Part shown: one piece after another, positions 1 to 40,660 of the stretch
Layout of the letters: each line of letters begins with the position of its first letter
Numbering within the stretch: position 1 is the stretch's first letter
Assembly (NCBI GenBank): GCA_947650915.1
Contig: CANSWY010000014.1
Location: 1-40,739 of the forward strand
Direction of reading: 5' to 3'
DNA: 40,739 nt
Origin: an uncultured Eggerthellaceae bacterium
Lineage (GTDB): Bacteria > Actinomycetota > Coriobacteriia > Coriobacteriales > Eggerthellaceae
Made by a program: the position numbers and the translations under genes
The notes under the pieces: generated by a model
What the model was told of the DNA's origin: nothing
Databases searched by the model: none
What the model saw: only the letters and a program-made list of their open reading frames with translations

Positions 1-25
1 CTTTTGCACATGGGTGTGGCGCGGG

Positions 26-53
26 TACGATTTGGGACGTCCCTTTTGCACAT
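26..53. repeat. Solo arm of the 96-bp palindromic repeat family
   Basis: Matches the right arm of the repeat family (TTTGGGACGTCCCTTTTGCA core), but its first bases read TACGA instead of TGTGCAA. No left arm is visible. The first ten bases of the window (CTTTTGCACA) are the end of another right arm, so at least one more element is cut by the window edge. Confidence 0.8.
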
Positions 54-68
54 GGGCGGCCAGCACGG

Positions 69-6760: not shown

Positions 6761-8232
6761 TGGGGGAGACCATGGTCTATGAAGTGGGGTATCTGACCGG
6801 CATCTACGAGGGCATCTTCCGGTTCCAATCCTTGGCCTACCTGTTGGCGGCGGTGCTGTTCATCCTGGCCCTGGCGGGGCTCTCCCGTCAGAAGACGGCG
6901 CGGCGCGGCAATCTCATGGGCATCATCGGCATGGCGCTGGCTCTTGTGGCCACCATCATCGTGGCCGTGTTCCAGACGGAAGTGGCGGCGGTCACCACGG
7001 TGGGGCTTTTGGTGGCGGCCATCGCCGTGGGCGCGGCCATCGGGGTTTGGCGGGCGCTCAAAGTGAAGATGACGGGCATGCCGGAGCTGGTGGCCATGCT
7101 GCATTCGTTCGTGGGCGCGGCAGCGGTGCTGGTGGGATACAACTCCTTCCTCACCGAACCCGGGGCTGCGGGCGCTGAGAACGCGTTCCACATGGGCGAA
7201 GTGGGGCTTGCGGTGTTCATCGGCGCGGTCACGCTCACCGGTTCGGTGGTAGCCTACTTGAAGCTGTCGGCGAAGATCTCCGGCAAGCCGCTCACGCTGC
7301 CGGGCCGCAATGCCATCAATGTGGTCATGGTGGTGGCGTGCCTGGCGCTCATCGGATGCTTGGTGGCATCGCGTGGCGTGGGGGAGGGCATCGTGCCCTT
7401 GGCCATCCTGACGGCCATCTCCCTCATCCTGGGCGCCCATCTGGTGCTGGCCATCGGCGGCGGGGACATGCCGGTGGTGGTGTCCATGCTGAACTCCTAT
7501 TCCGGCTGGGCCGCGGCCATGGCCGGCTTCACGCTGGGGAACGACCTCTTGATCATCACGGGCGCCCTGGTGGGTTCGTCCGGCGCATACCTGTCCTACA
7601 TCATGTGCCAAGGCATGAACCGCTCCTTCATCTCCGTCATCTTGGGCGGCTTCGGCGGGGATGCGCCGAAAGCGGCCAGCGGCAGCGGGGATGCAGCGGA
7701 GATGGGCGAATACACCGAAGTCACGCCTGAAGAAGCGGCGGAGATGCTCAAAGGGTCCAAACGCGTGATCATCACGCCGGGCTATGGCATGGCAGTGGCT
7801 CAGGCGCAGTTCCCGGTGGCGGACCTCACGCGGCGCTTGCAGGATGCGGGCGTGGACGTGCAGTTCGCGGTGCATCCGGTGGCGGGGCGCATGCCTGGAC
7901 ACATGAACGTGCTGCTGGCGGAAGCGAAGGTGCCCTATGACAGCGTGCTGGACATGGATGACGTGAACGATGACTTCGGAGACGTTGACACGGTGCTGGT
8001 CATCGGCGCGAACGATACCGTGAATCCGTCTGCGGAGACCGAGCCGGATTCGCCCATCGCGGGCATGCCGGTCCTGCGCGTGTGGGATGCGGGGCGCGTC
8101 ATCGTGTTCAAGCGCTCCATGGGCAACGCCGGGTACGCGGGCGTGCAGAACCCGCTGTTCTTCAACGAGAACACGGACATGCTCTTGGGGGACGCGAAGG
8201 CTTCCGTGGACGCCATCGTCTCCGCCCTCTGA
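6757..8232 (+). CDS. pntB: NAD(P) transhydrogenase subunit beta
   Basis: Membrane beta subunit of the transhydrogenase, 491 residues (E. coli 462). About nine hydrophobic segments fill residues 1-275; a soluble NADP-binding domain follows, with [15 protein letters not shown] (about 335-349) and [11 protein letters not shown] (about 413-423) as signatures. The start ATG overlaps the pntA stop by 4 bases, with AGGAG 9 bases upstream; an ATG follows immediately in frame, so the exact start is uncertain by one codon. With pntA it forms a complete enzyme. A 96-bp palindromic element begins 159 bases after the stop. Confidence 0.97.
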
Positions 8233-8348
8233 TCCCGTTCCGCCCTGCACGTACGCACAACTTCCATAGCGCAGGCCCGTAGCGAAGGCTTCAGCCTTCG
8301 TCCACCCGGAACACGCTCTCGAACGGGTTCCCCTTGCTGCTCCATGCA

Positions 8349-8376
8349 TGTGCGAAAGGGACGTCCCAAATTGCAC
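8349..8376. repeat. Solo left arm of the palindromic family
   Basis: ATGTGCGAAAGGGACGTCCC followed by AAATTGCAC; ends in CCGCGAG rather than ATAGGAAAAG, with no matching right arm. It sits 15 bases before a complete element. Confidence 0.8.
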
Positions 8377-8391
8377 CCGCGAGATCGCCTG

Positions 8392-8487
8392 ATGTGCAAA
8401 AGGGACGTCCCAAATTGCACATAGGAAAAGCCTCCCAGTGCGCATGAACATCTGCTATGTGCAATTTGGAACGTCCCTTTTGCACAT
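8392..8487 (+). repeat. 96-bp palindromic element, copy A
   Basis: Left arm 8392-8424, 30-base loop 8425-8454, right arm 8455-8487. The arms pair almost completely; the one mismatch is C against A in the GGGACGTCCC core (right arm GGAACGTCCC). The loop (GAAAAGCCTCCCAGTGCGCA...) is nearly identical to that of copy B but differs from the other copies. The element lies after pntB. Orientation (+) is defined by GAAAAG following the left arm. Confidence 0.92.
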
Positions 8488-8533
8488 GCCGAGCGCGCTG
8501 GGGTATGACTTTTGTCTGTGGCGCACGGCCGGC

Positions 8534-8743
8534 GGCACCCTTGTGCCAGGCGCGACCCTGCGGGCGCACCTGTCGCGGTGCTTGCGCACCACTGTTTTCA
8601 AAAGGGCGGCTTGCGCCGCCCGTCGGGGGTGCGCACCGGCCGCATGCGCTTCGCGAGTGACAGCTGGCCGCTCGCGGGGCGTCCAGCTGTCGCGGCCTCC
8701 GGCCGCTGCATTCACTGGCGGGCTCTAGGGCGCGTGCGCGCCC
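8534..8743. other. Cluster of seven compact stem-loops
   Basis: Perfect short inverted repeats follow each other: GGCAC/GTGCC (8534-8547), GGTGC/GCACC (8577-8590), GGGCGGC/GCCGCCC (8604-8621), the palindrome GGTGCGCACC (8628-8637), GACAGCTGG/CCAGCTGTC (8659-8691), GCGGCC/GGCCGC (8692-8706) and GGGCGCG/CGCGCCC (8728-8743). No ORF explains the region. It lies between two near-identical palindromic elements. It could be a structured RNA, a decayed mobile element or simply GC-rich spacer. Confidence 0.5.
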
Positions 8744-8793
8744 GTCACCCTTGATCCGGGTATTGCTGGGTTCGGCTTGCTGGAGATTGCCTG

Positions 8794-8889
8794 ATGTGCA
8801 AAAGGGACGTCTCAAATTGCACATAGGAAAAGTCTCCCAGTGCGCATGAACTTCTGCTATGTGCAATTTGGAACGTCCCTTTTGCACAT
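8794..8889 (+). repeat. 96-bp palindromic element, copy B
   Basis: Left arm 8794-8826, loop 8827-8856, right arm 8857-8889. The palindrome extends 4 bp outward (CCTG before, CAGG after). It matches copy A through the loop, and both copies are preceded by GAGAT-N-GCCTG, so the two probably arose by duplication of a longer unit. Confidence 0.92.
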
Positions 8890-8892
8890 CAG

Positions 8893-8925
8893 GAGGTCAC
8901 AAAGGGACGGAGGATTCGTGACCTC
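8893..8925. promoter_or_regulatory. Dyad GAGGTCAC-N17-GTGACCTC upstream of the glutaredoxin gene
   Basis: Perfect 8-bp inverted repeat directly after palindromic copy B and 28 bases before the candidate -10 of the glutaredoxin gene. It could be an operator or an RNA hairpin. A dyad of similar shape (TCAC-N16-GTGA core) precedes hyhS. Confidence 0.4.
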
Positions 8926-8950
8926 TGGGCATGCCATCGTTACACGGCAG

Positions 8951-8959
8951 TGGTATGGT
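8951..8959 (+). promoter_or_regulatory. Candidate extended -10 (TGGTATGGT)
   Basis: TG-N-TATGGT, 32 bases before the glutaredoxin start, without a recognisable -35 box. Confidence 0.35.
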
Positions 8960-8991
8960 GATGGGCATCTGCAATCCATGGAAGGAGCATC

Positions 8992-9249
8992 ATGGCCTAC
9001 TTTGAGGATCTCACTCTGTACTACAAGCCCACGTGTCCGTATTGCGTGAAAGTGCTGGCGTACATGCAGGAGCAGGACATCGAATGCGCCATGAAGAACA
9101 CCATGGAGCCGGGCGTGCGCGATGAGCTGATCAACATCGGCGGCAAGGGCCAGGTGCCGTGCCTCATCATCAGCGGTCAGCCGCTCTACGAATCCGATGA
9201 CATCATCGAATATCTGCACGGCCTGGTGGCGGCCGAAGAGATAGGCTAG
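8992..9249 (+). CDS. Glutaredoxin-like protein
   Basis: 85-residue thioredoxin-fold protein with the redox motif CPYC at 15-18, the cis-proline segment QVPCLII (about 54-60) and a C-terminal ESDDIIEYL helix as in glutaredoxin/GST-N domains. It should reduce disulfides or thiol adducts in the cytoplasm. GGAAGGAG lies 4 bases before the ATG. The ATP-grasp gene starts 5 bases after its stop, so the two are co-transcribed. Its electron donor is not evident. Confidence 0.92.
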   Translation: MAYFEDLTLYYKPTCPYCVKVLAYMQEQDIECAMKNTMEPGVRDELINIGGKGQVPCLIISGQPLYESDDIIEYLHGLVAAEEIG

Positions 9250-9254
9250 GCACC

Positions 9255-10394
9255 ATGGTCATCCTGGACGAACCGGTGGCATCCGAGGCGCTCATCCAGT
9301 GGCTGGCGGCCAGCCAGCATCCGGTGCTGGCGAACTCGTTCGCAAAGCAGAAGGCGGCCGAGGGTTGCGCGCTCAACCTGGTGGACGATGCGGAAGGTGC
9401 GCGCCGAGCGGATGCGGGCGAGCGCATTTACACCTGCACGGAGAACGCGCTGGCTTGGATCATGGATCATGCTGCGAACGAGGGCCTGAAGGCCTCCATC
9501 CAGCTGTTCAAGGACAAGGGCCTCATGCGGGAGCATCTGAGCGCGTTGAGTGACGGCTTCTTCTTCAAACGCTTGGGCCGGGATGAGCTGGCGCAGGTGG
9601 ACGCGGACGCGTTGCCGCTGCCGGTGGTGCTGAAACCCAACGTGGGCTTCTGTTCCATGGGCGTATACGTGGTGGACAGCGCCCAGGCCTGGGCGGAGGC
9701 GCTGGCGGACATCGAACGCAGTGAAGACCAGTGGCACGCCATGTATCCTGAGAGCGTGGTGGGTGCGGGCGAATACCTGATAGAAGGCTACATCGAGGGG
9801 CCGGAATTCGCGGTGGACGCCTACTACGACGAAGCGGGCGCGCCGCACATCCTGAACATCTGGCGCCACGATTTCGCCAGCGCGGAGGACACCAGCGATC
9901 GCTTGTACCTGTCCAGCCAGCAGATCGTGGATGAGACGTTCGATGAATTCAGCCAGTGGCTCTCAGACGTGAACGCCATCGTGGGCGCGCGCAGCTTCTG
10001 CGTGCACGTGGAGCTGCGCCGCACGGCCGCGGGCATCATCCCCATCGAATTCAACCCCTTGCGCTTCGCAGGGCTGGGCGGCACGGATATGGCTTTCTAC
10101 GGGTGCGGGTATCGCACCTATGAGTGCTACTTGGAAGACCTGCCGCTGGACCTGCGCCAGGTGTACCGGACCCATCCGGAGGATGTCTACTCCATGTCCC
10201 TGCTGGGACGCGCGGGCGAGGGCGCGTTCGAATACGATGCGTTCGCGGAACGCTTTTCGGATGTGCTGCACTTCTCCCGGTTCGATGTGGGCAAGGTGGG
10301 CAGCTACGGTTTCCTGTTCCTGCGCACGCCGGTGGATGATGACGCGGAACGGGAGTTCCTTCTCCACGCGGACCTGCAGGACTTCCTGGCATAG
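9255..10394 (+). CDS. ATP-grasp family protein, substrate unknown
   Basis: 379-residue soluble protein with an ATP-grasp fold. The ATP-binding lysine strand is VVLKPNVGFCSMGVYVV (about 124-140); GEYLIEGYIEGPEFAVDAYY (about 173-192) and the metal-binding IPIEFNPLRF (about 259-268) complete the site. Such enzymes form amide, peptide or thioester bonds through acyl-phosphates. The acceptor cannot be read from the sequence. It follows the glutaredoxin gene by 5 bases, suggesting a thiol-containing substrate or product; this is inference only. A broken palindromic element starts 64 bases after the stop. Confidence 0.85.
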   Translation: MVILDEPVASEALIQWLAASQHPVLANSFAKQKAAEGCALNLVDDAEGARRADAGERIYTCTENALAWIMDHAANEGLKASIQLFKDKGLMREHLSALSDGFFFKRLGRDELAQVDADALPLPVVLKPNVGFCSMGVYVVDSAQAWAEALADIERSEDQWHAMYPESVVGAGEYLIEGYIEGPEFAVDAYYDEAGAPHILNIWRHDFASAEDTSDRLYLSSQQIVDETFDEFSQWLSDVNAIVGARSFCVHVELRRTAAGIIPIEFNPLRFAGLGGTDMAFYGCGYRTYECYLEDLPLDLRQVYRTHPEDVYSMSLLGRAGEGAFEYDAFAERFSDVLHFSRFDVGKVGSYGFLFLRTPVDDDAEREFLLHADLQDFLA

Positions 10395-10457
10395 TCGGTG
10401 CGGATCACGGCGGGGTCCTGTGCGAAAGGCTCTCCCCGTGGGCTGAAGGGCTGCCAG

Positions 10458-10543
10458 ATGTGCGAAAGGGACGTCCCAAATTGCACATAGGAAAAGGTGA
10501 TGCGTGCTAAAAGCGCAATTCTATGTGCAATTTGGAACGTCCC
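10458..10543 (+). repeat. Palindromic element, copy C, right arm broken
   Basis: Left arm 10458-10490, 30-base loop 10491-10520, then a right arm that matches only through TTTGGAACGTCCC (to 10543). Where CTTTTGCACAT is expected there is poly-C. The loop sequence differs from other copies, but the length is kept. Confidence 0.88.
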
Positions 10544-10575
10544 CCCCCCCCCCCCGCCCCCCCCCCCCGCCCCCC
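10541..10575 (+). repeat. Interrupted poly-C tract
   Basis: C15-G-C12-G-C6: 33 of 35 bases are C. The tract starts exactly in the CCC of the repeat's GACGTCCC core and ends at the inner border of the outer right arm. Slippage at a hairpin or an assembly error could produce it; tract length may be unreliable. Confidence 0.85.
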
Positions 10576-10670
10576 TTCAGCCCACGGGGAGAGCCTTTCG
10601 CATCTGGAAGCCTCGCATGGGGCTGCTTCGCATCTGGGACTCAGGCTTTCGCAGGGGGTTTCTGTGCGTG

Positions 10671-11147
10671 CTATGAGGGGGTTCTTCGGTGCAGACGAGC
10701 AAGTTTGGCGCGGCCGTACTTCCAGGTCTGCACGCAGGCGGTGACGATGCAGATGCCGCAGGCGATCCCCGCGGCGAACAGGAACGTGGCGCTGCCGTTC
10801 GCAGCGAAGGAAGCCCAATCCGCGTTCACCGCTCCTGACATGGTGTAGAACAGCCCCCGCCCCGGCACCAGCGGGATCACCGCGATGATGAAGAACGCCG
10901 TGGCGGGCACGCGGCCGGTGCGCGCCATCACCTCTGCGAAGGCGGCAGCGAACGTGGACGCCACGATGCACGGCACGAAGATCTGCCCCATCATCTGGTA
11001 CAGCAGCCAGTACAACGCCCAGGTCAGAAAGCCCGCCACGGACGCGGCGGGGATGAAGCGCGGGTTCATGTTGAAGAACAGCGCGAACCCCAAAGCGCCC
11101 GCGAACGCCGTGACCAGCTGCACTACCGCGTATCCGTCCAACATCAT
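10671..11147 (-). CDS. yjjB: ThrE/YjjB-type exporter small subunit
   Basis: 158-residue membrane protein with 4-5 hydrophobic segments, matching the C-terminal (ThrE_2/DUF3815) half of the threonine/serine exporter family and E. coli YjjB. IIAVIPLVPGRGLFYTM (about 87-103) is the family signature. The start at 11147 is preferred over one 20 codons upstream because it gives a 4-base ATGA overlap with the larger subunit and begins at the first membrane segment. In E. coli the YjjPB pair exports succinate and ThrE exports threonine, so the substrate here is open. Confidence 0.87.
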   Translation of the reverse strand: MMLDGYAVVQLVTAFAGALGFALFFNMNPRFIPAASVAGFLTWALYWLLYQMMGQIFVPCIVASTFAAAFAEVMARTGRVPATAFFIIAVIPLVPGRGLFYTMSGAVNADWASFAANGSATFLFAAGIACGICIVTACVQTWKYGRAKLARLHRRTPS

Positions 11148-11944
11148 GCGACCACCTGCGCTATCCAGATGGCGGCCATGAACCCCAAGGCCAGCGACAC
11201 GGCCCACAGCAGGCTCTCCACGAAGCGCATCACGCCGGAGATGGTGTCGCCGGAGAGCATGTCGCGGGTGGCGTTCGTCATGGCCACGCCCGGGATCAAG
11301 AGCATGATGTCCCCGATCATCACCAGGTCAGGGGAGATGTCTGTCCAAATGCCGGCCACGGCCATGATGCCCAGCCCGCAGATGAACGAATTCACGAAGT
11401 TGAAGATGATGGTGTCCGGCGTCCAAGGACGCGCCCAGCGGATGGAGCAGCACAAGAGGATGGCGAACGCGGCGGACACCGCCGCATCCAACAGCGTGCC
11501 GCCGAAGAACAGCGCGAACGCGCCTGCGGACAGCATGCCGCCTGCGAAGAGGGCCCAGGCAGGGATGGGCCGGGCACAGATGGCGCGCAGGTCACGGCGG
11601 ACTTCATCCGGCCCGGGCTGTTCGGCGCGCACCTTCGCGCATAAGCCGAAGAGCCGCTCCATCTTGTGGAAATCGATTCCCACGTCCCCGGTGATGCGGC
11701 GGGTGAGCGTGTGTTCGTAGCCGCCCGGCAGCGTCATGGTGGCGATGATGGTGGCCGTGATGACCATCACGTTCATCTTGCGCGCGCCGTAGGCATGCCC
11801 CAGGCGCATCAGCTCCTCTTCGATGGAGTGCACGTCCGCGCCGGACAGCAGCAGCGCTTCTCCCACATCCAGAAGCGCAGGGAACGCATCCAGGGCCAGC
11901 GGGGCTTGCGGGTCAGCCGGGAAGCACGCGTGAGCAGAAGCCAT
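11144..11944 (-). CDS. yjjP: ThrE/YjjP-type exporter large subunit
   Basis: 266 residues from the ATG at 11944, corresponding to the ThrE_1/DUF1212 half of the exporter. A cytoplasmic N-terminal region has the family stretch LLLSGADVHSIEEELMRLGHAYG (about 32-54), and about five membrane segments follow, with GDIMLLIPGVAMTNATRDML (about 207-226) as signature. The frame is open 30 codons further upstream, but AAGGAAGG lies 6 bases before 11944, which fixes the start. It overlaps the small subunit by 4 bases; the two probably form one transporter. Confidence 0.87.
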   Translation of the reverse strand: MASAHACFPADPQAPLALDAFPALLDVGEALLLSGADVHSIEEELMRLGHAYGARKMNVMVITATIIATMTLPGGYEHTLTRRITGDVGIDFHKMERLFGLCAKVRAEQPGPDEVRRDLRAICARPIPAWALFAGGMLSAGAFALFFGGTLLDAAVSAAFAILLCCSIRWARPWTPDTIIFNFVNSFICGLGIMAVAGIWTDISPDLVMIGDIMLLIPGVAMTNATRDMLSGDTISGVMRFVESLLWAVSLALGFMAAIWIAQVVA

Positions 11945-11999
11945 GAGCGTCCTTCCTTTCCCCGTTGGCAGCCTCTTCGTCCACGCTACCATAAAACGC

Positions 12000-12027
12000 T
12001 TGACCCGCCTGCGCGTTCCGTTACAAT
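12000..12027 (+). promoter_or_regulatory. Promoter of the MFS-CBS gene
   Basis: TTGACC (12000-12005), 16-base spacer, TACAAT (12022-12027); the start codon is 64 bases downstream. This is the best sigma-70-type promoter in the window. Confidence 0.65.
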
Positions 12028-12090
12028 CCCTCACGGAAAAATCCTTTTCGCATATCTGACTTCGAACAGCAAAAGAGGGGCGAACTGAAT

Positions 12091-14070
12091 ATGACGCTAG
12101 GTGTGGACAGGAAAGATCTTGTCATGGTCGGCGTGCTGCTCGCAGGCACGTTGCTGGCTGTGCTCAACCAGACGCTGTTGTCTCCGGCGCTGCCGGCCAT
12201 CATGGGGTCGCTCAGCGTGGACGCTACCACGGTACAGTGGCTCACCAGCGGCTATTCGCTGGTGGAGGCGGTCATCATCCCGCTCTCCGCGTATTTGATC
12301 GGGCGCTTCACCACCCGTCAGCTCTTCATCAGCGCGCTTTGCGTGTTCTTCGCAGGATCCCTTGCGGCGGCGGTGGCGCCGGCGTTCCCCATCCTGCTTT
12401 TGGGCCGCATCCTGCAGGCGGCGTGCACGGGCGCCATCATGCCCATGGTGTTCACGGTGATCCTTCTGGTCTTCCCGCGCGAGATGCGCGGCACGGCCAT
12501 GGGGGTCATCGGGCTGATCATCGGGTTCGCTCCCGCAGTGGGGCCGTCGGTGGCGGGCCTGTTGGTGGATTCGGTGGGCTGGCGCTGGCTCTTCGGCATC
12601 GTCACGGTCCTCACCGTGGTGGTCATCGTGCTGGCCGCCTTCACGCTCAGGAACTACGGGGATTTCAAGCGCACGAAGTTCGATGTGCCTTCGGTGGCGC
12701 TCTCCACCTGTGGCCTGGTGTGCTTGCTCTACGGCCTTTCCACCTTCGCTTCCACCACGAACATGCCGATCACGGTGGGGCTGATCGTGGTGGGCGTCGT
12801 CATCATGGGCGTGTATGTGCGCCGCCAGCTCACCATGCCGGAACCCATGATCAAAGTGGGCATCCTCTCCACCCGGAAGTACGCCACCTCTGTCATCGTC
12901 ATCGTCACGGTGCAGGCAGCGCTCATGGGCACGGGCGTCATCACGCCGCTCTACATCCAGGGCGTGCGCGAATATTCCGCCACCATGTCGGGCGTGGCCA
13001 TGCTGCCCGGCGCGCTCATCGGTGCATTCATGGGGCTCATCAGCGGACGCCTGTTCGATCGCTATGGCGTGAAGCGCGTGGTGGTGCCAGGCTCTTTGGT
13101 GGCGCTCTGTGGCGGGTTCTGCCTGGTGCTGCTGGGCATGGACACCGATTTCATCTTCATCACGCTGGCTTACACGGTGCTCATGGTGGGCCTGCAGTTC
13201 ACCATGACGCCGCTCAACACCTGGGGCGTGAATTCGTTGGACAACTCCGTCATCCAGCACGCGCAGGGACTGTCGAACACGCTGAACCAGGTGGCTGCCA
13301 GCGTGGGCACGGCGCTGTTGGTGTCCATCTCAGCGCTGTCCTCGCAGCTCTACCCCGATGCGCCGCCGGTGCAGCAGGCTTATGAGGGTTACCACCTGGC
13401 CTATTTGGCCACAGCCATCCTCATGTGCGTGGCGGTGGCCATCATCATCGTGTTCGTGAACGACAGGAAGGCGAAGGATGGGGCCATGCAGAAGGACGCG
13501 CTGCCGGATTACGCGGCCGGCATGGACGGCGTCACGGTTGACGCGCGCGCGGATGAACCGAAGATCGAGCTTCTGGGCGGCACCATCGGCACGCAGGTGC
13601 AGGATGCCATGAACACCGATCCGGTGGTGGTGCAGGATTCTGCGCGCATGCGCGATGTCATCCGCCTCATGTCTCGCACTGACTCCAGCGGGCTGCCCAT
13701 CGTGGATGAGGCCGGGGATCTGGCGGGCTTCATCTCTGATGGGGATGTGGCGAACTACCTGGGACGCCATGACATCTCCGTCATAGACACCACGCTGAAC
13801 TTCTACCGGTTCGTGGATGATTCACCGCTCAAGGGGCGCTTGCTCACGCTGTTGGATCTGAACGTGATGGACATCGCCACGAAGAAGGTGGTGTCCGTGG
13901 AGGCTGATTCCGCCATCGACGACGCCTGCCGCGTGCTGGCGGAGCGCCGCATCAAGAAGGTGCCCGTGGTGCGGGGCGGCCGCTTGGTGGGCACGCTCTC
14001 CCGCCGGGACATCATGCGCAGCCTGGCAGAGATCGTGGACGCTGTGGAGGAGAGCGAAGCGCAGGCCTAA
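12091..14070 (+). CDS. MFS drug-efflux-type transporter fused to a CBS domain pair
   Basis: 659 residues. Residues 1-465 form a DHA2/EmrB-QacA-type proton antiporter with about 14 membrane segments: motif A-like YLIGRFTTRQLF (about 67-78) and motif C-like GFAPAVGPSVAGLL (about 144-157). A cytoplasmic linker leads to two CBS domains (about 503-555 and 590-648; VQDAMNTDPVVV and VMDIATKKVVSV openings, SDGDVANYL and SRRDIMRSL ends). CBS pairs bind adenine nucleotides and gate other transporters, so efflux may respond to energy status. The fusion is unusual for this family. AGAGGGG lies upstream of the ATG. Its TAA overlaps the convergent mazG stop. Confidence 0.9.
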   Translation: MTLGVDRKDLVMVGVLLAGTLLAVLNQTLLSPALPAIMGSLSVDATTVQWLTSGYSLVEAVIIPLSAYLIGRFTTRQLFISALCVFFAGSLAAAVAPAFPILLLGRILQAACTGAIMPMVFTVILLVFPREMRGTAMGVIGLIIGFAPAVGPSVAGLLVDSVGWRWLFGIVTVLTVVVIVLAAFTLRNYGDFKRTKFDVPSVALSTCGLVCLLYGLSTFASTTNMPITVGLIVVGVVIMGVYVRRQLTMPEPMIKVGILSTRKYATSVIVIVTVQAALMGTGVITPLYIQGVREYSATMSGVAMLPGALIGAFMGLISGRLFDRYGVKRVVVPGSLVALCGGFCLVLLGMDTDFIFITLAYTVLMVGLQFTMTPLNTWGVNSLDNSVIQHAQGLSNTLNQVAASVGTALLVSISALSSQLYPDAPPVQQAYEGYHLAYLATAILMCVAVAIIIVFVNDRKAKDGAMQKDALPDYAAGMDGVTVDARADEPKIELLGGTIGTQVQDAMNTDPVVVQDSARMRDVIRLMSRTDSSGLPIVDEAGDLAGFISDGDVANYLGRHDISVIDTTLNFYRFVDDSPLKGRLLTLLDLNVMDIATKKVVSVEADSAIDDACRVLAERRIKKVPVVRGGRLVGTLSRRDIMRSLAEIVDAVEESEAQA

Positions 14071-14930
14071 CGCGCTGCGCTTTCCGTCCTCTTCGCGGCC
14101 TGCCAGAGCGCTTCCCGCTGCTGGGCATCCATCTTTTCCAGCGGCTCTCCTGCCTCCAGGGCCGCATCTTCCATGGCGGCCCACCGCGCGCGGAACTTGC
14201 GGCAGGCCCCGCGCAGGGCGTTCTCGGCGTTGAGGCCCATCTTGCGCGCCACGTTCACCAGGCTGAAGAGCGCATCCCCCAGCTCCTCTTCCACGTGCGC
14301 CGCCTCTGGCGCGTCATGCAGCACGCGTCCGCGTTCATCTTGGGGCGCGGCGGCGTAGGCCTCTTTCAGCTCCGCCACCTCTTCGGCCACTTTGCCCCAG
14401 GCGCCATCCACGGTCTCCCATTCGAAGCCTACGGCCGCTGCCTTGCGGGATATCTTCTGCGCCTGGGTGAGCGCCGGAAGCCCGGTGGGCACGCCGTCCA
14501 GCAAGCGCTCCGGCCCGGCAGAGTTGCCAGCGACTTCCTTCTCTGTCAGCTTGATCTGGTCCCAGAGCGCGATCACCTCGTTCGCGCTGCCGCCTTGAGC
14601 CTCGCCGAAGACGTGCGGATGGCGCCGGACGATCTTCGCGTCCACCTCTGCGCACACGTCATCGATGGTGAATTCGCCCGCATCTGCTGCGATCTGGCTC
14701 TGCAACACCACCTGCAAAAGCACATCTCCCAGCTCTTCGCGCAGATGCGCCACGTCATCCGATTCGATGGCATCCACCGCCTCATAGGCTTCTTCGATCA
14801 TGTTGGGCGCGATGGAGAGATGCGTCTGTTCCTGGTCCCAGGGACATCCGTCCGGCGCGCGCAGCGCGGCGATGGTGGCGACGAACCGGTCGAACGCGGG
14901 GTGTTCTACGGGGGTGGCAGATGCGCTCAT
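14067..14930 (-). CDS. mazG: Nucleoside triphosphate pyrophosphohydrolase MazG
   Basis: Cytoplasmic house-cleaning NTP pyrophosphatase, 287 residues from the ATG at 14930. The first MazG domain has CPWDQEQTH (about 24-32) and the metal-binding EEAYEAVDAI and LREELGDVLLQV helices with the E-x-x-D pattern. A second copy carries EVAELKEAY and VEEELGDALFSLVNVAR. Two-domain length matches E. coli MazG (263). The frame stays open upstream to 15689, but that part is the shadow of the UbiB gene; GAAGGA lies before 14930. Stop TAG shares bases 14068-14069 with the stop of the MFS gene. Confidence 0.93.
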   Translation of the reverse strand: MSASATPVEHPAFDRFVATIAALRAPDGCPWDQEQTHLSIAPNMIEEAYEAVDAIESDDVAHLREELGDVLLQVVLQSQIAADAGEFTIDDVCAEVDAKIVRRHPHVFGEAQGGSANEVIALWDQIKLTEKEVAGNSAGPERLLDGVPTGLPALTQAQKISRKAAAVGFEWETVDGAWGKVAEEVAELKEAYAAAPQDERGRVLHDAPEAAHVEEELGDALFSLVNVARKMGLNAENALRGACRKFRARWAAMEDAALEAGEPLEKMDAQQREALWQAAKRTESAAR

Positions 14931-15074
14931 GGGCGATGGTCCTTCCTCATCAGGTGGTCCGGATTCTATCTCATACGGACTCGTTACAGCATCCGCACCG
15001 GCAAGCCCGCGTGGATGCGCCTTGGGTAGAATGGCGAGAAGGGGCAAGGACCACCGGCCAAGAAGGAGGCGTTC

Positions 15075-16703
15075 GTGGCCACCTGGCAGGAATTCTATAG
15101 GGTGCTCAAGCTCTCCTGGAAGGACAAGACGTCCGGCCGCCGTGTGCGCCAGATCCTCTCCGTCCTCAAGCGCTACGACGTGCTGCATGACTTCACGCCG
15201 CAGAAGGCTGTGGCGGTGCTGGAGGCGCTGGGTCCCACCTACGTGAAGATCGGGCAGATGGCGTCCACCCGCTCTGACATCCTGCCGAAAGCCTACTGCG
15301 AAGCCTTCGAAAGCTTGCATGCGGACGTGTCGCCCATGCCGTTCTTCCAGGTGTTGGATTGCATCACGCGCTCTTATGGGCGCAGCTGGGAAGAAACGTT
15401 CCTGGCCATTGATCCTGCGCCTTTGGGGTCCGCGTCCGTGGCGCAGGTGCACCGCGCGGTGCTCAAGGATGGTTCGGTGGTGGCCGTCAAGGTGCGCCGC
15501 CCGGGCATCGTGGCGGAGATGTCTGAAGACATCACGCTCATGCAGCGCATCCTGGCCACGGCTGAATTCGTGGATCCAGGGAACCAGACGCTGTTCTTGA
15601 ACTTCGACAACCTGCTGGATGAGCTTGAGCGCACCACGAAGAACGAACTGGATTTCCGGGTGGAGCTGGACAACCTCATCCGCTTTCACGCTGAGACGGC
15701 GAACCAGCGCGGCGTCACGTCACCCATCCCATATCCGGCGTGCTCCAACGAGTCCGTGCTGGTGATGCAATACATCGAAGGCATCCAGGTGGACGACGTG
15801 CCGGCGCTCAAGACGGAAGGCATCGATCTTGACCACCTGGCGTACCGCATCATGCAAAGCTACATCTCCCAGGTGCTGGACGACGGCTTCTTCCACGCGG
15901 ACCCGCATCCGGGCAACATCCTCATCCGCGGGAAGGAGATCGTCTGGATAGACTTGGGCATGACCGGGAGTCTCACGCCCAGCCAGCGCCAGCTGGTGGG
16001 GCGCATGTTCCGCTCCATTCCGGCGAACGATCCGTATCTGCTCATGGAATCGGTGGTGGGCATCTCCAAGAAGAACGGCCCTGTCGATTTCGGCAAGCTC
16101 TTGCAGGAGCTGTCCATCCTGCTGGACAAATACGGCTCCTCCGACTTGTCCGACATCAACGTGGGGGACGCCATGGGCGAGATGGTGGAGGTCATGCGCA
16201 CGCAGAACCTCATCATGGCGCCCGCGGTCACCATGCTGGTGCGCGGCATCGTCACACTGGAAGGCGTCATGGAGGCCATCGCGCCCACCCTCAACGTCAT
16301 CCAGATCGTGTCACAGCACGTGCTGGTGCAATCCCTGAATCCCGAGCACGTCGAGATGCGCGCGCTGGAACTGCTCACGTCCACGGCTGAATCGGCCGAG
16401 GCGCTGGTGAAGCTGCCGCGCCAGGTGTCGAACGCCGTTGAGATGCTGGAGCGCGGAGAGATCGCGCTCAAGGGCAACGTGGAGGTGTCCACGAACGTGC
16501 TGGCCACGGTGTACGCGTCCGTGGGGCGCATATCGCTGGCGCTCATCTCCGTGGGGCTGTTCTTGGGGTCGTCCATCCTTTGCACCACGAACATGGAACC
16601 GAGGTTCTTGGAGGTGCCGGTGCTGGGCGTGCTGGGGTACGTGGGCGCGTTCGTGCTGGGCGTGTACGTCATCGTGGCCACCTTCCGCAGCCGCAAACGC
16701 TGA
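15075..16703 (+). CDS. ubiB: UbiB/AarF-family atypical kinase
   Basis: 542-residue ABC1/ADCK-family protein linked in other organisms to isoprenoid quinone biosynthesis or homeostasis. The KxGQ motif is in YVKIGQMAS (about 56-64); the Ala-rich loop is PLGSASVAQVHRA (about 117-129), catalytic elements are FFHADPHPGN (about 273-282) and IDLGMTG (about 292-298). Two membrane helices close the protein (about 485-540). The start is GTG at 15075 with AAGGAGG 5 bases upstream. In a menaquinone-using anaerobe the pathway link is plausible but not shown. A palindromic element begins 26 bases after the stop. Confidence 0.92.
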   Translation: MATWQEFYRVLKLSWKDKTSGRRVRQILSVLKRYDVLHDFTPQKAVAVLEALGPTYVKIGQMASTRSDILPKAYCEAFESLHADVSPMPFFQVLDCITRSYGRSWEETFLAIDPAPLGSASVAQVHRAVLKDGSVVAVKVRRPGIVAEMSEDITLMQRILATAEFVDPGNQTLFLNFDNLLDELERTTKNELDFRVELDNLIRFHAETANQRGVTSPIPYPACSNESVLVMQYIEGIQVDDVPALKTEGIDLDHLAYRIMQSYISQVLDDGFFHADPHPGNILIRGKEIVWIDLGMTGSLTPSQRQLVGRMFRSIPANDPYLLMESVVGISKKNGPVDFGKLLQELSILLDKYGSSDLSDINVGDAMGEMVEVMRTQNLIMAPAVTMLVRGIVTLEGVMEAIAPTLNVIQIVSQHVLVQSLNPEHVEMRALELLTSTAESAEALVKLPRQVSNAVEMLERGEIALKGNVEVSTNVLATVYASVGRISLALISVGLFLGSSILCTTNMEPRFLEVPVLGVLGYVGAFVLGVYVIVATFRSRKR

Positions 16704-16729
16704 CCGCCCCTGCGCGAGAGCTTTCCTCC

Positions 16730-16825
16730 ATGTGCAGAAGGGACGTTCCAAATTGCACATAGGAAAAGATGGCGCGCACAGAAAGGCTCATCCTATGTGC
16801 AATTTGGGACGTCCCTTCTGCACAT
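16730..16825 (+). repeat. 96-bp palindromic element, copy D
   Basis: Left arm 16730-16762, 30-base loop 16763-16792, right arm 16793-16825. Both arms carry a paired change (TGTGCAGAAGGG left, CCCTTCTGCACA right) relative to TGTGCAAAAGGG. The left core GGGACGTTCC pairs by G-U with the right GGGACGTCCC in a plus-strand RNA. It follows ubiB by 26 bases. Confidence 0.92.
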
Positions 16826-16975
16826 GGGTCCCTTTTGCATAGGGGAACTGCTCGGCTCATGGTCGTTCTCTCATCTTCTGCGCAATCCGGGAAACGTTCC
16901 TCCTCTCATCCTGCTGTGCTCCGCGTGCAGCGCTTTTGATCGGAGGGCACCAGGCCCTCGCCTTTCTGTCTGCGG

Positions 16976-17071
16976 ATGTGCGAAAGGGACGTTCCAAATC
17001 GCACATAGGCAATGATCATGCGTACAGAAAGACTCATCCTATGTGCAATTTGGGACGTCCCTTTCGCACAT
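16976..17071 (+). repeat. 96-bp palindromic element, copy E
   Basis: Left arm 16976-17008, 30-base loop 17009-17038, right arm 17039-17071. Another paired change: TGTGCGAAAGGG left and CCCTTTCGCACA right. The last 66 bases are repeated in tandem just downstream. Confidence 0.92.
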
Positions 17072-17072
17072 C

Positions 17073-17138
17073 TAGGCAATGATCATGCGCACAGAAAGGC
17101 TCATCCTATGTGCAATTTGGGACGTCTCTTTCGCACAT
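17073..17138 (+). repeat. Tandem duplication of loop plus right arm
   Basis: Repeats 17006-17071 (TAGGCAATGATCATGCG...) after one base, with three substitutions. A third arm without a partner results, so two alternative hairpins can form with the left arm of copy E. Confidence 0.9.
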
Positions 17139-17166
17139 CGGTCTTTGGCGCGGGGTGGGGGAAACC

Positions 17167-17175
17167 TGATACCAT
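17167..17175 (+). promoter_or_regulatory. Candidate extended -10 (TGATACCAT) for nfo
   Basis: TG-N-TACCAT, 36 bases before the TTG start of nfo, resembling the element before sufC. Confidence 0.3.
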
Positions 17176-17211
17176 GGGCGGTGCGGAAACCGTCCATGAA
17201 AGCAGGGCTTC

Positions 17212-18054
17212 TTGTTCACCATCGGCTGCCATCTGTCCTCATCCAAAGGCTACGAGGCCATGGCGCGCACAGCGGCCTCCATCGGCGCGAACACCTTCCA
17301 GTTCTTCACGCGCAACCCGCGCGGCGGACGCGCGAAGGACATCAGCCCTGATGATGTGGAGGCCTTCGAAACCGCCGCTGAGGAGGCGGGCATCACGCGC
17401 ATCCTGGCGCACGCGCCCTACACGCTGAACCCGGCCGCAGCGAAACCTGAGACGCGTGAATTCGCGCTCATGACGCTGGCGGATGACCTCCAGCGCATGG
17501 AGGCCACGCCAGGGCAGCTGTACAACATGCATCCCGGCGCGCACGTGGGCCAGGGGACCGAGGCGGGCATCCAGAAGATCACAGATGCCCTGAACCAGGT
17601 GTTGAAACCGGAACAGTCCACCACGCTCCTTTTAGAGACCATGGCCGGCAAGGGCACGGAGGTGGGCGGTACGTTCGAGGAACTGGCGGACATCATCAGC
17701 CGCATCCAGCTCTCAGACAAAGTGGGCGTCTGCTTGGACACGTGCCATGTTTGGGAAGGCGGCTACGACATCAAGGAAAACCTGGAGGGCGTCCTTGAAG
17801 CGTTCGACCGCGCGGTGGGCCTGTCCCGTTTGCGCGCCATCCATCTGAACGACTCCAAGAACCCGCGCAGTGCGCACAAAGACCGCCATGAGGTCATCGG
17901 CGGCGGGCGCATCGGGCTGGACGCGCTGGCGGCCGTCACGGCGCACCCGGCGCTCCGGGACCTGCCGTTCTATCTGGAAACGCCCCATGACGAGGTGGCG
18001 GAATACGGGGAAGAGATCCGCGCGCTGGCTGCGGCCCGGGAGGCGATGCTCTGA
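17212..18054 (+). CDS. nfo: Deoxyribonuclease IV (AP endonuclease)
   Basis: Zinc-dependent AP endonuclease of base-excision repair, 280 residues (E. coli Nfo 285). The TIM-barrel opens FTIGCHLSSSKGY; metal ligands sit in HPGAHVGQG (about 104-112), LLLETMAGKG (about 141-150), CLDTCHVW (about 173-180), HLNDSK (about 209-214) and DRHEVIGGG (about 220-228). The start is TTG: the frame has a stop a few codons upstream, the ATG at 17196 is in another frame, and the translation aligns with Nfo from its first residues. The next gene starts on its stop codon (TGATG). Confidence 0.95.
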   Translation: MFTIGCHLSSSKGYEAMARTAASIGANTFQFFTRNPRGGRAKDISPDDVEAFETAAEEAGITRILAHAPYTLNPAAAKPETREFALMTLADDLQRMEATPGQLYNMHPGAHVGQGTEAGIQKITDALNQVLKPEQSTTLLLETMAGKGTEVGGTFEELADIISRIQLSDKVGVCLDTCHVWEGGYDIKENLEGVLEAFDRAVGLSRLRAIHLNDSKNPRSAHKDRHEVIGGGRIGLDALAAVTAHPALRDLPFYLETPHDEVAEYGEEIRALAAAREAML

Positions 18055-31742: not shown

Positions 31743-31988
31743 ATGTGCTTCAGACCAGCTGGCGCCGAAGGTGGCGGAAACACTTGCCCTGAGTGCGGCA
31801 AGACTGTCCAGGCGATGGGCGGAATCCAGATGAAGACCTGCCCGTTCTGCAAGGCGGACTTCACCAAGTACATGAATGAGGACGGCTCTGTGAAGGCTGC
31901 TGCTCCTGGTGCCCCGGCGGCTCCGGGCGCACCGGCTGCTCCGGCTGCCCCGGGCGCTCCGGCGGCTCCGAAGGCCCCCGGCCAGTAA
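31743..31988 (+). CDS. Small zinc-ribbon protein with Ala/Pro/Gly tail
   Basis: 81 residues from the ATG at 31743 (GGAG 8 bases upstream). Two CxxC pairs (C15-C18, C33-C36) plus C2 make a zinc ribbon or rubredoxin-like knuckle; the spacing C15-x2-C18-x14-C33-x2-C36 fits one zinc site. Residues 53-81 are low-complexity repeats of GAPAAP. A perfect terminator 11 bases after the stop ends the unit, so the gene is monocistronic and probably well expressed. Function unknown. Confidence 0.8.
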   Translation: MCFRPAGAEGGGNTCPECGKTVQAMGGIQMKTCPFCKADFTKYMNEDGSVKAAAPGAPAAPGAPAAPAAPGAPAAPKAPGQ

Positions 31989-32084: not shown

Positions 32085-32180
32085 CTGTGCAAAAGGGACG
32101 TCCCAAATTGCACATAGGAAAAGACCATGCGCACAGAATGCCTGTTCCTATGTGCGATTTGGAACGTCCCTTTTGCACAG
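32085..32180 (+). repeat. 96-bp palindromic element, copy F
   Basis: Left arm 32085-32117, loop 32118-32147 (30), right arm 32148-32180. The outermost pair is C-G where the other copies have A-T, another paired change. The right core has GGAACGTCCC. Confidence 0.92.
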
Positions 32181-32335: not shown

Positions 32336-32431
32336 ATGCGCAAAAGCGACGTCCCAAATTGCACATGGAAAAAGACCATGCGCACTGAAAGGCTTTTGCT
32401 ATGTGCAATTTGGAACGTCCCTTTTGCACAT
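32336..32431 (+). repeat. 96-bp palindromic element, copy G
   Basis: Left arm 32336-32368, loop 32369-32398, right arm 32399-32431. The left arm has decayed bases (TGCGCAAAAGCGACG), so pairing is poorer than in other copies. It begins 22 bases after the 3' end of the minus-strand tRNA and could serve as its terminator. Confidence 0.9.
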
Positions 32432-32453: not shown

Positions 32454-32529
32454 TGGTGCCCTCGACAGGAGTCGAACCTGCGACACCTTGCTCCGGAGGC
32501 AAGTGCTCTATCCACTGAGCTACGAGGGC
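32454..32529 (-). tRNA. tRNA-Arg (anticodon CCG), CCA encoded
   Basis: The minus strand folds as a cloverleaf. Acceptor GCCCTCG pairs with CGAGGGC; D-stem GCTC/GAGC; anticodon stem CTTGC/GCAAG with loop CTCCGGA, anticodon CCG; T-arm includes GGTTCGACTCC. Discriminator base A, then an encoded CCA (32454-32456). The anticodon decodes CGG. The rlmD-like gene on the other strand starts 80 bases away. Confidence 0.96.
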
Positions 32530-39248: not shown

Positions 39249-40538
39249 ATGGCTTCTAAGAGCATCAACGTGGAACACCTGGCGCGCATCGAAGGCCATG
39301 GCGACATCCATCTGGAGATAGAGGACGGCGCGGTCACCCGGTGCGAATTCGCAGTGACCGAACCGGCGCGCCTGTTCGAGTCCATGGTGCGCGGCCGCCC
39401 GTTCCAGGAAGCGCCCTACATCGCCTCGCGGGTGTGCGGCATCTGCTCGGCCAGCCATACGCTGACGGACATCCTGGCCATCGAGCGCATCTTCGGCGTG
39501 GAGGTGGCGGAGCGCACGCGCGCCATCCGGGAGCTTTTGATCTACGGCTCCTTCCTGCAGAACCACGCCACGCATCTGTTCGTGTTCGCGGCCCCTGATT
39601 TCCTGGGGCACAAGAGCGTGTTCCCGCTCAAAGACGCGGATCCCGCCCTGTTCGACCAGGCGCTTGCGCTGAAGGGGCTGGGAAACCAGCTGTGCACGCA
39701 GGTGGGCGGCCGGTCCATCCATCCCATCACGGCGGTGGTGGGTGGCTTCACGTCCGAGCTTTCCGCCGATGAGTACCGTGCGCTGGCGGACCAGCTGGAT
39801 GCCATGGTGGATTTCGCGCTGGCCAGCGTGGATCTGTTCAACGGGTTCGAAGCCACTGACTTGCAGACACAGGGCGACATGCTGGCCATGGTGGAGGAGG
39901 GCGCCTACCCCGTCATCGGATCGGATGAGGCGCTCTTCGTGCGTGAGGGCATCCGCTTCTCCGCTCAGGACTATCGGGACCACGTGGAAGAATACGCCGT
40001 GGGGCATTCGGCGGCATTCCTGGCGAAGGAGCGCGCGAACGGCCGTCCGTACATGGCGTGCGCTCTGGCGCGCGTGAATGCTTCTTGGGGCAACCTCACG
40101 GAGCAGGCGCGGTTCGCCGCTGCGAAGGCAGGCCTCAGGCCGCCGGAGTCCAACCCGTTCGCGAACAACGTGGCGCAGGCCGTTGAAGTGGTGGATGCGC
40201 TGGTGCGGTGCGCGGCCACGTGCCATGGGTTGGCCGAGGGCGCGTTCGAGGGCTCCAGCGAACCGGTGCCGTTCCAGGTGCGAGCCGGCCGCGGCGTGGG
40301 CTTCACGGAGGCGCCGCGCGGCGCTCTGTTCCATGAGCTGGAACTGGATGATGAGGGCCGGGTGGTGCGCGCGAACATCATCACGCCCACGTCCCAGAAC
40401 ATCGCGAACATCGAAGCGGACATGCGCGCATTGGCGCAGATGCTGGCGGATGAGGGCCGCAGCGCGGAGGACATCCAGCTGGAAGTGGAGAAACTGGTGC
40501 GCGCCTACGATCCCTGTCTGTCCTGCAGCGTTCACTGA
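39249..40538 (+). CDS. hyhL: Group 3b [NiFe] hydrogenase large (alpha) subunit, no C-terminal extension
   Basis: Catalytic subunit, 429 residues. N-terminal nickel ligands in RVCGICSASH (C63, C66) and C-terminal ligands in DPCLSCSVH (C423, C426) form the [NiFe] site. The gene ends directly after His429: there is no C-terminal peptide of the kind that maturation endopeptidases usually remove. The RIEGHGDIHLEI opening is typical. The ATG follows hyhS by 3 bases with GAGGAGG upstream. The enzyme would oxidise or evolve H2 with NADP(H). No maturation genes (hyp) are in the window. A palindromic element starts 27 bases after the stop. Confidence 0.96.
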   Translation: MASKSINVEHLARIEGHGDIHLEIEDGAVTRCEFAVTEPARLFESMVRGRPFQEAPYIASRVCGICSASHTLTDILAIERIFGVEVAERTRAIRELLIYGSFLQNHATHLFVFAAPDFLGHKSVFPLKDADPALFDQALALKGLGNQLCTQVGGRSIHPITAVVGGFTSELSADEYRALADQLDAMVDFALASVDLFNGFEATDLQTQGDMLAMVEEGAYPVIGSDEALFVREGIRFSAQDYRDHVEEYAVGHSAAFLAKERANGRPYMACALARVNASWGNLTEQARFAAAKAGLRPPESNPFANNVAQAVEVVDALVRCAATCHGLAEGAFEGSSEPVPFQVRAGRGVGFTEAPRGALFHELELDDEGRVVRANIITPTSQNIANIEADMRALAQMLADEGRSAEDIQLEVEKLVRAYDPCLSCSVH

Positions 40539-40565: not shown

Positions 40566-40660
40566 ATGTGCAGAAGGGGCGTTCCAAATTGCACATAGCA
40601 AAGAGCATGGGCACAGGAAGGCTCATCCTATGTGCGATTTGGGACGTCCCTTCTGCACAT
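40566..40660 (+). repeat. 95-bp palindromic element, copy H
   Basis: Left arm 40566-40598, 29-base loop 40599-40627, right arm 40628-40660. It carries the same paired change as copy D (TGTGCAGAAGGG / CCCTTCTGCACA). It lies 27 bases after hyhL. A perfect 12-bp palindrome (CCTTCTAGAAGG) follows at 40670-40681. No gene is seen in the last 79 bases. Confidence 0.92.

Follow-up and report, generated by a model that had tools for sequence, protein, structure and literature searches.

The genome of an uncultured Eggerthellaceae bacterium carries hundreds of copies of a directional, gene-less hairpin element, and the orientation of these elements follows replication, not transcription. We consider it probable, at roughly 70%, that they are non-autonomous, REPIN-like mobile DNAs, i.e., paired terminal repeats of the kind that flank Y1 (HuH, IS200-like; RAYT/TIRYT class) transposase genes, without the gene itself and inserted strand-specifically at replication forks. 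This assignment to non-autonomous dimers of the Y1 class is drawn from sequence comparison: the architecture of the arms matches Y1 terminal repeats, and, in one relative (G064), a Y1 gene lies between arms of the same family.

Abundance and Genomic Location

The window, i.e., the whole 40.7-kb stretch of DNA that was analyzed, is contig C14 of the host assembly (G000), which comprises 1.98 Mb in 50 contigs and is 98.6% complete. A 20-bp arm core matches the window 19 times at up to three mismatches and is never found in 100 dinucleotide shuffles; across the 1.98-Mb assembly, it has 1005 matches at up to two mismatches, as compared to zero for a reversed-pattern control. Both controls rule out a chance origin, and the genome-wide matches rule out a repeat limited to the 40-kb segment. 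The sequence-only reading had proposed a whole-genome search and extrapolated from this segment to hundreds of copies per genome, an estimate borne out by the 1005 arms and by 274 clusters in 1.52 Mb. It had not recognized the family, and no annotated family was found for it; in an Rfam search of the window, only a tRNA reached the threshold.

Detailed counts cover 1.52 of the 1.98 Mb and comprise 795 arms, 254 cores, and the 274 clusters, corresponding to a density of ~0.5 arms per kb. Elements account for 2.5% of this sample and for 21% of the intergenic DNA within it. Only 20 of the 274 cluster midpoints fall inside predicted genes, and the median distance to a stop codon is 33 bp. Among gaps of at least 50 bp, an element is found in 61% of those between convergent genes versus 17% of those between divergent genes. 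Density is very uneven, from 5.6 clusters per 10 kb to the left of dnaA on contig C8 to 0.5 per 10 kb on C1. An arm lies within 400 bp of 24 of the 40 contig ends tested (~7% expected); the host assembly breaks at arm repeats.

Elements in the Window

All seven complete 96-bp copies proposed from the letters alone were found in place on the + strand, the last of them one base short. They occupy positions 8392..8487 (type CT, i.e., C arm, 30-nt loop, T arm), 8794..8889 (a second copy of the same subfamily, with left arm GGGACGTCTC), 16730..16825 (type TC, i.e., T arm, loop, C arm; 27 bp past the stop codon of a gene that ends at 16703), 16976..17071 (type TC), 32085..32180 (type CT), 32336..32431 (type CT; a − strand tRNA gene, at 32457–32529, has its 3′ end 26 bp away), and 40566..40660 (type TC, with a loop one base shorter; 27 bp past the stop codon of a gene that ends at 40538). 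Each arm had been said to hold its own palindrome, which is true of one arm, GGGACGTCCC (type C), and not of the other, GGGACGTTCC (type T).

The partial copies were correctly located, and their nature needed revision. The supposedly broken copy at 10458..10554 (+ strand) has both arms, the right one merging into a poly-C tract at 10543–10567. This run of ~25 bases is a likely slippage site, and the copy is nested in a ~30-bp inverted repeat (GCGAAAGGCTCTCCCCGTGGGCTGAAGGG and its complement; region 10410–10610). What had been read as a solo arm at 8349 is the outer, third arm, of type C, of an extended three-arm unit (8348..8378, + strand), joined to the core arm by the spacer CCGCGAGATCGCCTG at a 44-bp spacing. 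The sequence described as a half-copy at 17073 is present as a 67-bp tandem duplication, 96% identical, of the loop and right arm of the copy at 16976–17071 (17073..17139, + strand). The other solo arm, reported at 26, lies at 24..56 on the − strand, at the contig edge, with its partner beyond the assembly break.

Two other features were seen in passing. Positions 8285–8305 hold another short palindrome, CGTAGCGAAGGCTTCAGCCTTCG, from a second repeat family with ~50 matches in 1.52 Mb, which also flanks the Y1 gene of locus L049; and short tandem repeats of the GCTGCTCCGG type lie at 31899–31970, where a small predicted gene ends.

Architecture of the Arm and the Unit

Read from outside to inside, the arm consensus is GATGTGCAAAAGGGACGTYCCAAATTGCACATAG. 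A single arm self-folds into a hairpin with the stem ATGTGCAA/TTGCACAT around AAGGGACGTYCC, while two inverted arms and their loop form a long hairpin of −35 to −40 kcal/mol as single-stranded DNA (ssDNA), with z-scores of −10 to −14. The copy at 8392..8487 has an ssDNA folding energy of −34.9 kcal/mol (z = −9.95), and strong folds are predicted for RNA too. Of the 254 cores in the 1.52-Mb sample, 227 have a spacing of 56 bp, and 237 pair a C-type with a T-type arm. The outer arm positions covary between the two arms of an element (e.g., 37 versus 9.3 expected), and the C/T position is anti-correlated between them (both non-consensus alike, 4 versus 55).

Clusters are convergent arrays built around a single core, in which left arms face right and right arms face left. 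A neighboring arm in the same direction occurs at 44 bp in 119 cases, with a spacer that is conserved among the 44-bp examples listed and has a consensus of about CTGCGAGGTTGCCTG. Type-C outer arms that read on the leading strand outnumber type-T outer arms that read on the lagging strand (117 versus 58), which makes the unit directional: it has arm types C and T and, often, a third arm on the C side with a fixed spacer. Loop orientation agrees with the C/T type in 182/213 elements and is flipped in 31/213; these flips are unexplained by a simple unit-insertion model.

Orientation Relative to Replication

The direction of each element was read from its C/T arm types and compared to that of replication, which was marked by GC skew corrected for gene direction or, where genes on one strand were too few, by the uncorrected skew of the contig. 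The C-to-T direction lies on the leading strand in 201 of 234 elements (p = 1e-30), leaving ~14% oriented against replication, and the majority agrees with replication in 21 of 22 contigs. Counting one element per loop group, 127/146 follow replication. Two further markers give the same picture: the 44-bp spacer of the third arm, which is independent of the C/T base, is on the leading strand in 112/134 cases, and loop orientation follows replication in 166/227.

This orientation does not follow transcription. Of 90 elements between convergent or divergent genes, at sites free of net transcription, 79 follow replication. Where neighboring genes are codirectional and their transcription opposes the inferred direction of replication, elements agree with replication in only 10 of 19 cases, and six of the nine exceptions lie on contig C27, where the skew is near zero. 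The assembly has a single dnaA, at 47937–49460 of C8. Cores on C8 comprise 24 TC and no CT before dnaA, and one TC and three CT after it, the last four being few enough to leave the switch point loose. The same contig contains a ~10-kb predicted open frame (L141, 61249–71407) that reaches the contig end, ~12 kb from dnaA. In the open literature, we found no report of replication-linked orientation of REP-type repeats, and subscription papers may hold one.

Local Copies

Copies with the same loop tend to be neighbors. Eleven of the 13 identical-loop pairs lie on the same contig, 284–4127 bp apart, as compared to a mean of 0.8 and a maximum of 5 in label shuffles. At a looser cut-off (loops at least 28/30 identical), 34 of 87 pairs share a contig (shuffles: mean 5.2, maximum 15), and the other 53 span different contigs; dispersal is thus not only local. 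In nearly all pairs, the two copies have unrelated flanks on at least one side, so most pairs are not segmental duplications, with one pair on C7 matching on both sides. The distance scale of the identical copies appears to resemble that of lagging-strand single-stranded regions.

Distribution among Relatives and Filled and Empty Sites

The family has a very narrow distribution. Arms (up to one mismatch) were found in only three of the 398 genomes of the class, i.e., the host, G047, and G064. The arm is absent from G001, a genome of the same genus, including the whole of a 400-kb sample against which 20 host clusters could be placed. A comparison of filled and empty sites, suggested by the sequence-only reading between strains, therefore falls here between species: the orthologous gaps in G001 have no elements and are often much shorter. 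The gap holding the window region 8347–8890 measures 771 bp in the host and 30 bp in G001, and other orthologous gaps measure 382 versus 31, 330 versus 33, and 169 versus 44 bp. Some gaps are equally long or longer in G001, and the arm is still absent from its sample.

Two of these gaps in G001 hold an unrelated hairpin repeat with GGGGGACGGAGGAG, which has 27 matches in 400 kb. A G001 hairpin family (CAGGGGGACGGAGGAGTGAGA and its complement; L188–L207) is found, e.g., opposite window positions 10339–10731; different hairpin families reuse the same intergenic gaps in the host and in G001. A viral origin was also considered and rejected, as a collection of viral contigs contained no exact arm core.

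Link to Y1 Transposases

The sequence-only reading also proposed to look for a Y1 gene with the same arms on either side, and G064 has one. Its 263-amino acid open reading frame is located between the inverted arms TGTGCAATTGGGACGTTCCGAATTGCACA and TGTGCAATTTGGAACGTCCCAATTGCACA, ~20 and ~40 bp outside the frame, and G064 also has a complete element of the host type. The earlier suggestion of a REP/BIME-like family pointed to the right neighborhood.

The G064 protein scores above the cut-off of Pfam Y1_Tnp and below that of the RAYT family NF047646 of NCBIfam (66.9 versus 80 bits). It extends ~130 amino acids beyond the Y1 domain match; at E 0.1 or better, Pfam gives Y1_Tnp only, with no helix-turn-helix found, and a sequence search of the PDB returned nothing. 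Relatives of this protein occur in 169/398 genomes of the class, with ~36–47% identity among the matches listed.

The arm shares its architecture with the terminal inverted repeats of Coriobacteriia Y1 transposases of the RAYT/TIRYT type. Inverted repeats scoring at least 14 surround the gene at 36 of 51 Y1 loci surveyed in the Coriobacteriia, with a usual layout of stem, GGGAC[GA], stem; the first-listed repeat contains GGACG at 25 of these 36 loci, and others have GGGACA. In G009, a 1.4-Mb, single-contig genome of the same family with eight Y1 matches (L040, L045, L048, L051, L054, and L058–L060), the inverted-repeat ends of the loci checked are weak, which sets them apart from most others.

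The host assembly has six Y1_Tnp matches, none with such an arm in the 1.2–1.5 kb flanking it on each side (up to four mismatches). Several of these genes have other flanking inverted repeats, some with GGGACG, and the host's own Y1 genes were rejected as the mother element on account of the other repeats in their flanks. Since the assembly breaks at repeats, the missing cognate gene is not final and may be an assembly effect.

Comparison with Known Systems

A close likeness is to TIRtrons (TIRYT), in which a Y1 gene is flanked by terminal inverted repeats (TIRs), some of them self-complementary and with a G-rich motif (Di Nocera et al. 2013, PMC3733652; subclass 2.1 in Quentin et al. 2018, PMC6006769). 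According to the available portions of both papers, TIR copies also occur elsewhere as singles, dimers, and clusters, and the Y1 protein is longer than IS200 TnpA; subclass 2.1 proteins have an extension with a helix-turn-helix at the C-terminus. The G064 locus, a Y1 gene between terminal inverted repeats of the arm family, has this organization. The same portions describe TIR families as ‘moderately abundant’, whereas the host has about 500 arms per Mb, and give the motif GGGGWSAS, common to only some TIRs, whereas the host arm has AGGGACGT and some other Coriobacteriia TIRs show GGGGACAG. The directional three-arm unit and the replication-linked orientation seen in the host go unmentioned there, as do the Coriobacteriia. 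More broadly, the open literature yielded no paper that deals with both Coriobacteria and tyrosine transposases.

REPINs of Pseudomonas fluorescens SBW25 consist of two inverted REPs and a spacer that form an extragenic, hairpin-forming, Y1-linked replicative unit (Bertels and Rainey 2011, PMC3116915). The host elements are likewise inverted palindromic pairs with a spacer, high in copy number and mostly extragenic. The 16-mers of the three SBW25 REP groups total 1067 (PMC3116915), and density per Mb is higher in the host. SBW25 REP 16-mers start with GTGG, GTGA, or GAGG beside the palindrome, whereas the host has GGGACG inside the hairpin and no GTAG/GTGG foot at the palindrome in its arm consensus. 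In E. coli, REP/BIME sequences are inverted REP pairs with a mismatched stem, recognized in vitro by TnpA-REP in single-stranded form and strand-specifically (PMC8266576); the host family shares the inverted pairs and the mismatched stem but lacks the GTAG guide, and no arm-flanked TnpA-REP gene was found in the host assembly. Finally, IS200/IS605 elements (IS608, ISDra2) combine Y1 chemistry on the lagging-strand template with hairpin ends and replication-linked insertion, as summarized in PMC6006769. Host elements are similarly fixed in orientation relative to replication; IS200/IS605 elements are, however, autonomous, with a transposase gene, whereas those of the host are gene-less inverted dimers. 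The simplest account is a gene-less dimer of inverted repeats that depends on a Y1 transposase and enters ssDNA of one strand at the fork, as IS608 and ISDra2 do; the family works like a REPIN without the GTAG-type foot and resembles TIRYT TIRs without their exact motif.

Origin of the Elements

In the REPIN-like reading, arms would fold as hairpins, and inverted arms with their loop would form the long hairpin; a Y1 transposase would recognize the arm on ssDNA, on one strand only; and a copy would be inserted into ssDNA exposed on the lagging-strand template. One-strand recognition and insertion into the lagging template would together account for the fixed orientation relative to replication and for landing within a few kb. 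We infer that a Y1 enzyme was the catalyst, the lagging template probably the active strand, and copying rather than excision the process responsible.

Much of this evidence could also be claimed for the replication machinery itself, which would spread or remodel the elements if their hairpins induced the fork to switch template onto nearby ssDNA, nesting arms with no transposase needed now. Replication-linked orientation, identical copies within a few kb, tandem and nested arms, the loop inversions, and a cognate transposase not found in the host assembly would all fit. Such switching is nonetheless unlikely as the origin, given that the arms match terminal repeats of Y1 genes in relatives, that further repeats of this type in the class are found with Y1 genes, and that near-identical loops occur on different contigs too. 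A gene-less family colonizing via the fork, with lagging-strand copies placed a few kb away in the same orientation either by a trans-acting transposase not found in the assembly or by template switching alone, is a tentative reading to which we give slightly better, still low, odds. Template switching may instead have acted only after insertion, with a strand-biased correction that converts GGGACGTTCC on one replication strand to GGGACGTCCC, a perfect palindrome, so that the C/T marker would be a mutational footprint. The G064 and G047 arms among those listed nearly all have T at the C/T position, making T possibly ancestral; mixed cores are the rule; and the type follows replication in 28 of the 31 loop-flipped copies. 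Loop orientation and the third-arm spacer, both independent of the C/T base, follow replication as well and argue against such a footprint, which we hold as doubtful as switching as the origin.

Selection for a function is harder still to reconcile with the data. Transcribed hairpins that stabilize or terminate messages would be favored at gene ends, and the strong RNA folds, the excess in convergent over divergent gaps, and the proximity to stop codons all agree with this. Yet elements keep to the replication direction even at sites free of net transcription, and the terminator-like sites called in window positions 8200–18000 include no full element hairpin with a T-run. Canonical intrinsic terminators, for which no full hairpin was called in that region, were rejected. 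An origin as RNA elements thus seems improbable, and any RNA effect may be secondary. A KOPS- or Chi-like polarity, by which elements would mark replication direction for a chromosome-handling protein, could draw on the strong orientation bias, its switch near dnaA, and the very high density of arms. KOPS density builds up towards the terminus. Here, elements are sparsest in C1 and densest to one side of dnaA, with no build-up to the terminus, and the same-genus genome lacks the family, as do 395 of the 398 class genomes, which makes a selected polarity very improbable indeed.

Implications

This genome adds a densely colonized case, with over a fifth of the sampled intergenic DNA taken up by elements, from a class that the available portions of two REP surveys (PMC3733652, PMC6006769) do not mention. 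In practical terms, short-read assemblies of gut bacteria are implied to break at such repeats. The way in which REP/REPIN-type repeats spread is described as unresolved (PMC8266576), and the copying process has so far been hard to catch for repeats of this class. The orientation, spacing, and flanks of hundreds of directional copies record insertion as strand-specific relative to replication and local; because the copies record how they inserted, a lagging-strand model of REPIN dispersal becomes testable by counting in other genomes. If true, this would be fork-driven colonization of a genome by a gene-less hairpin family.
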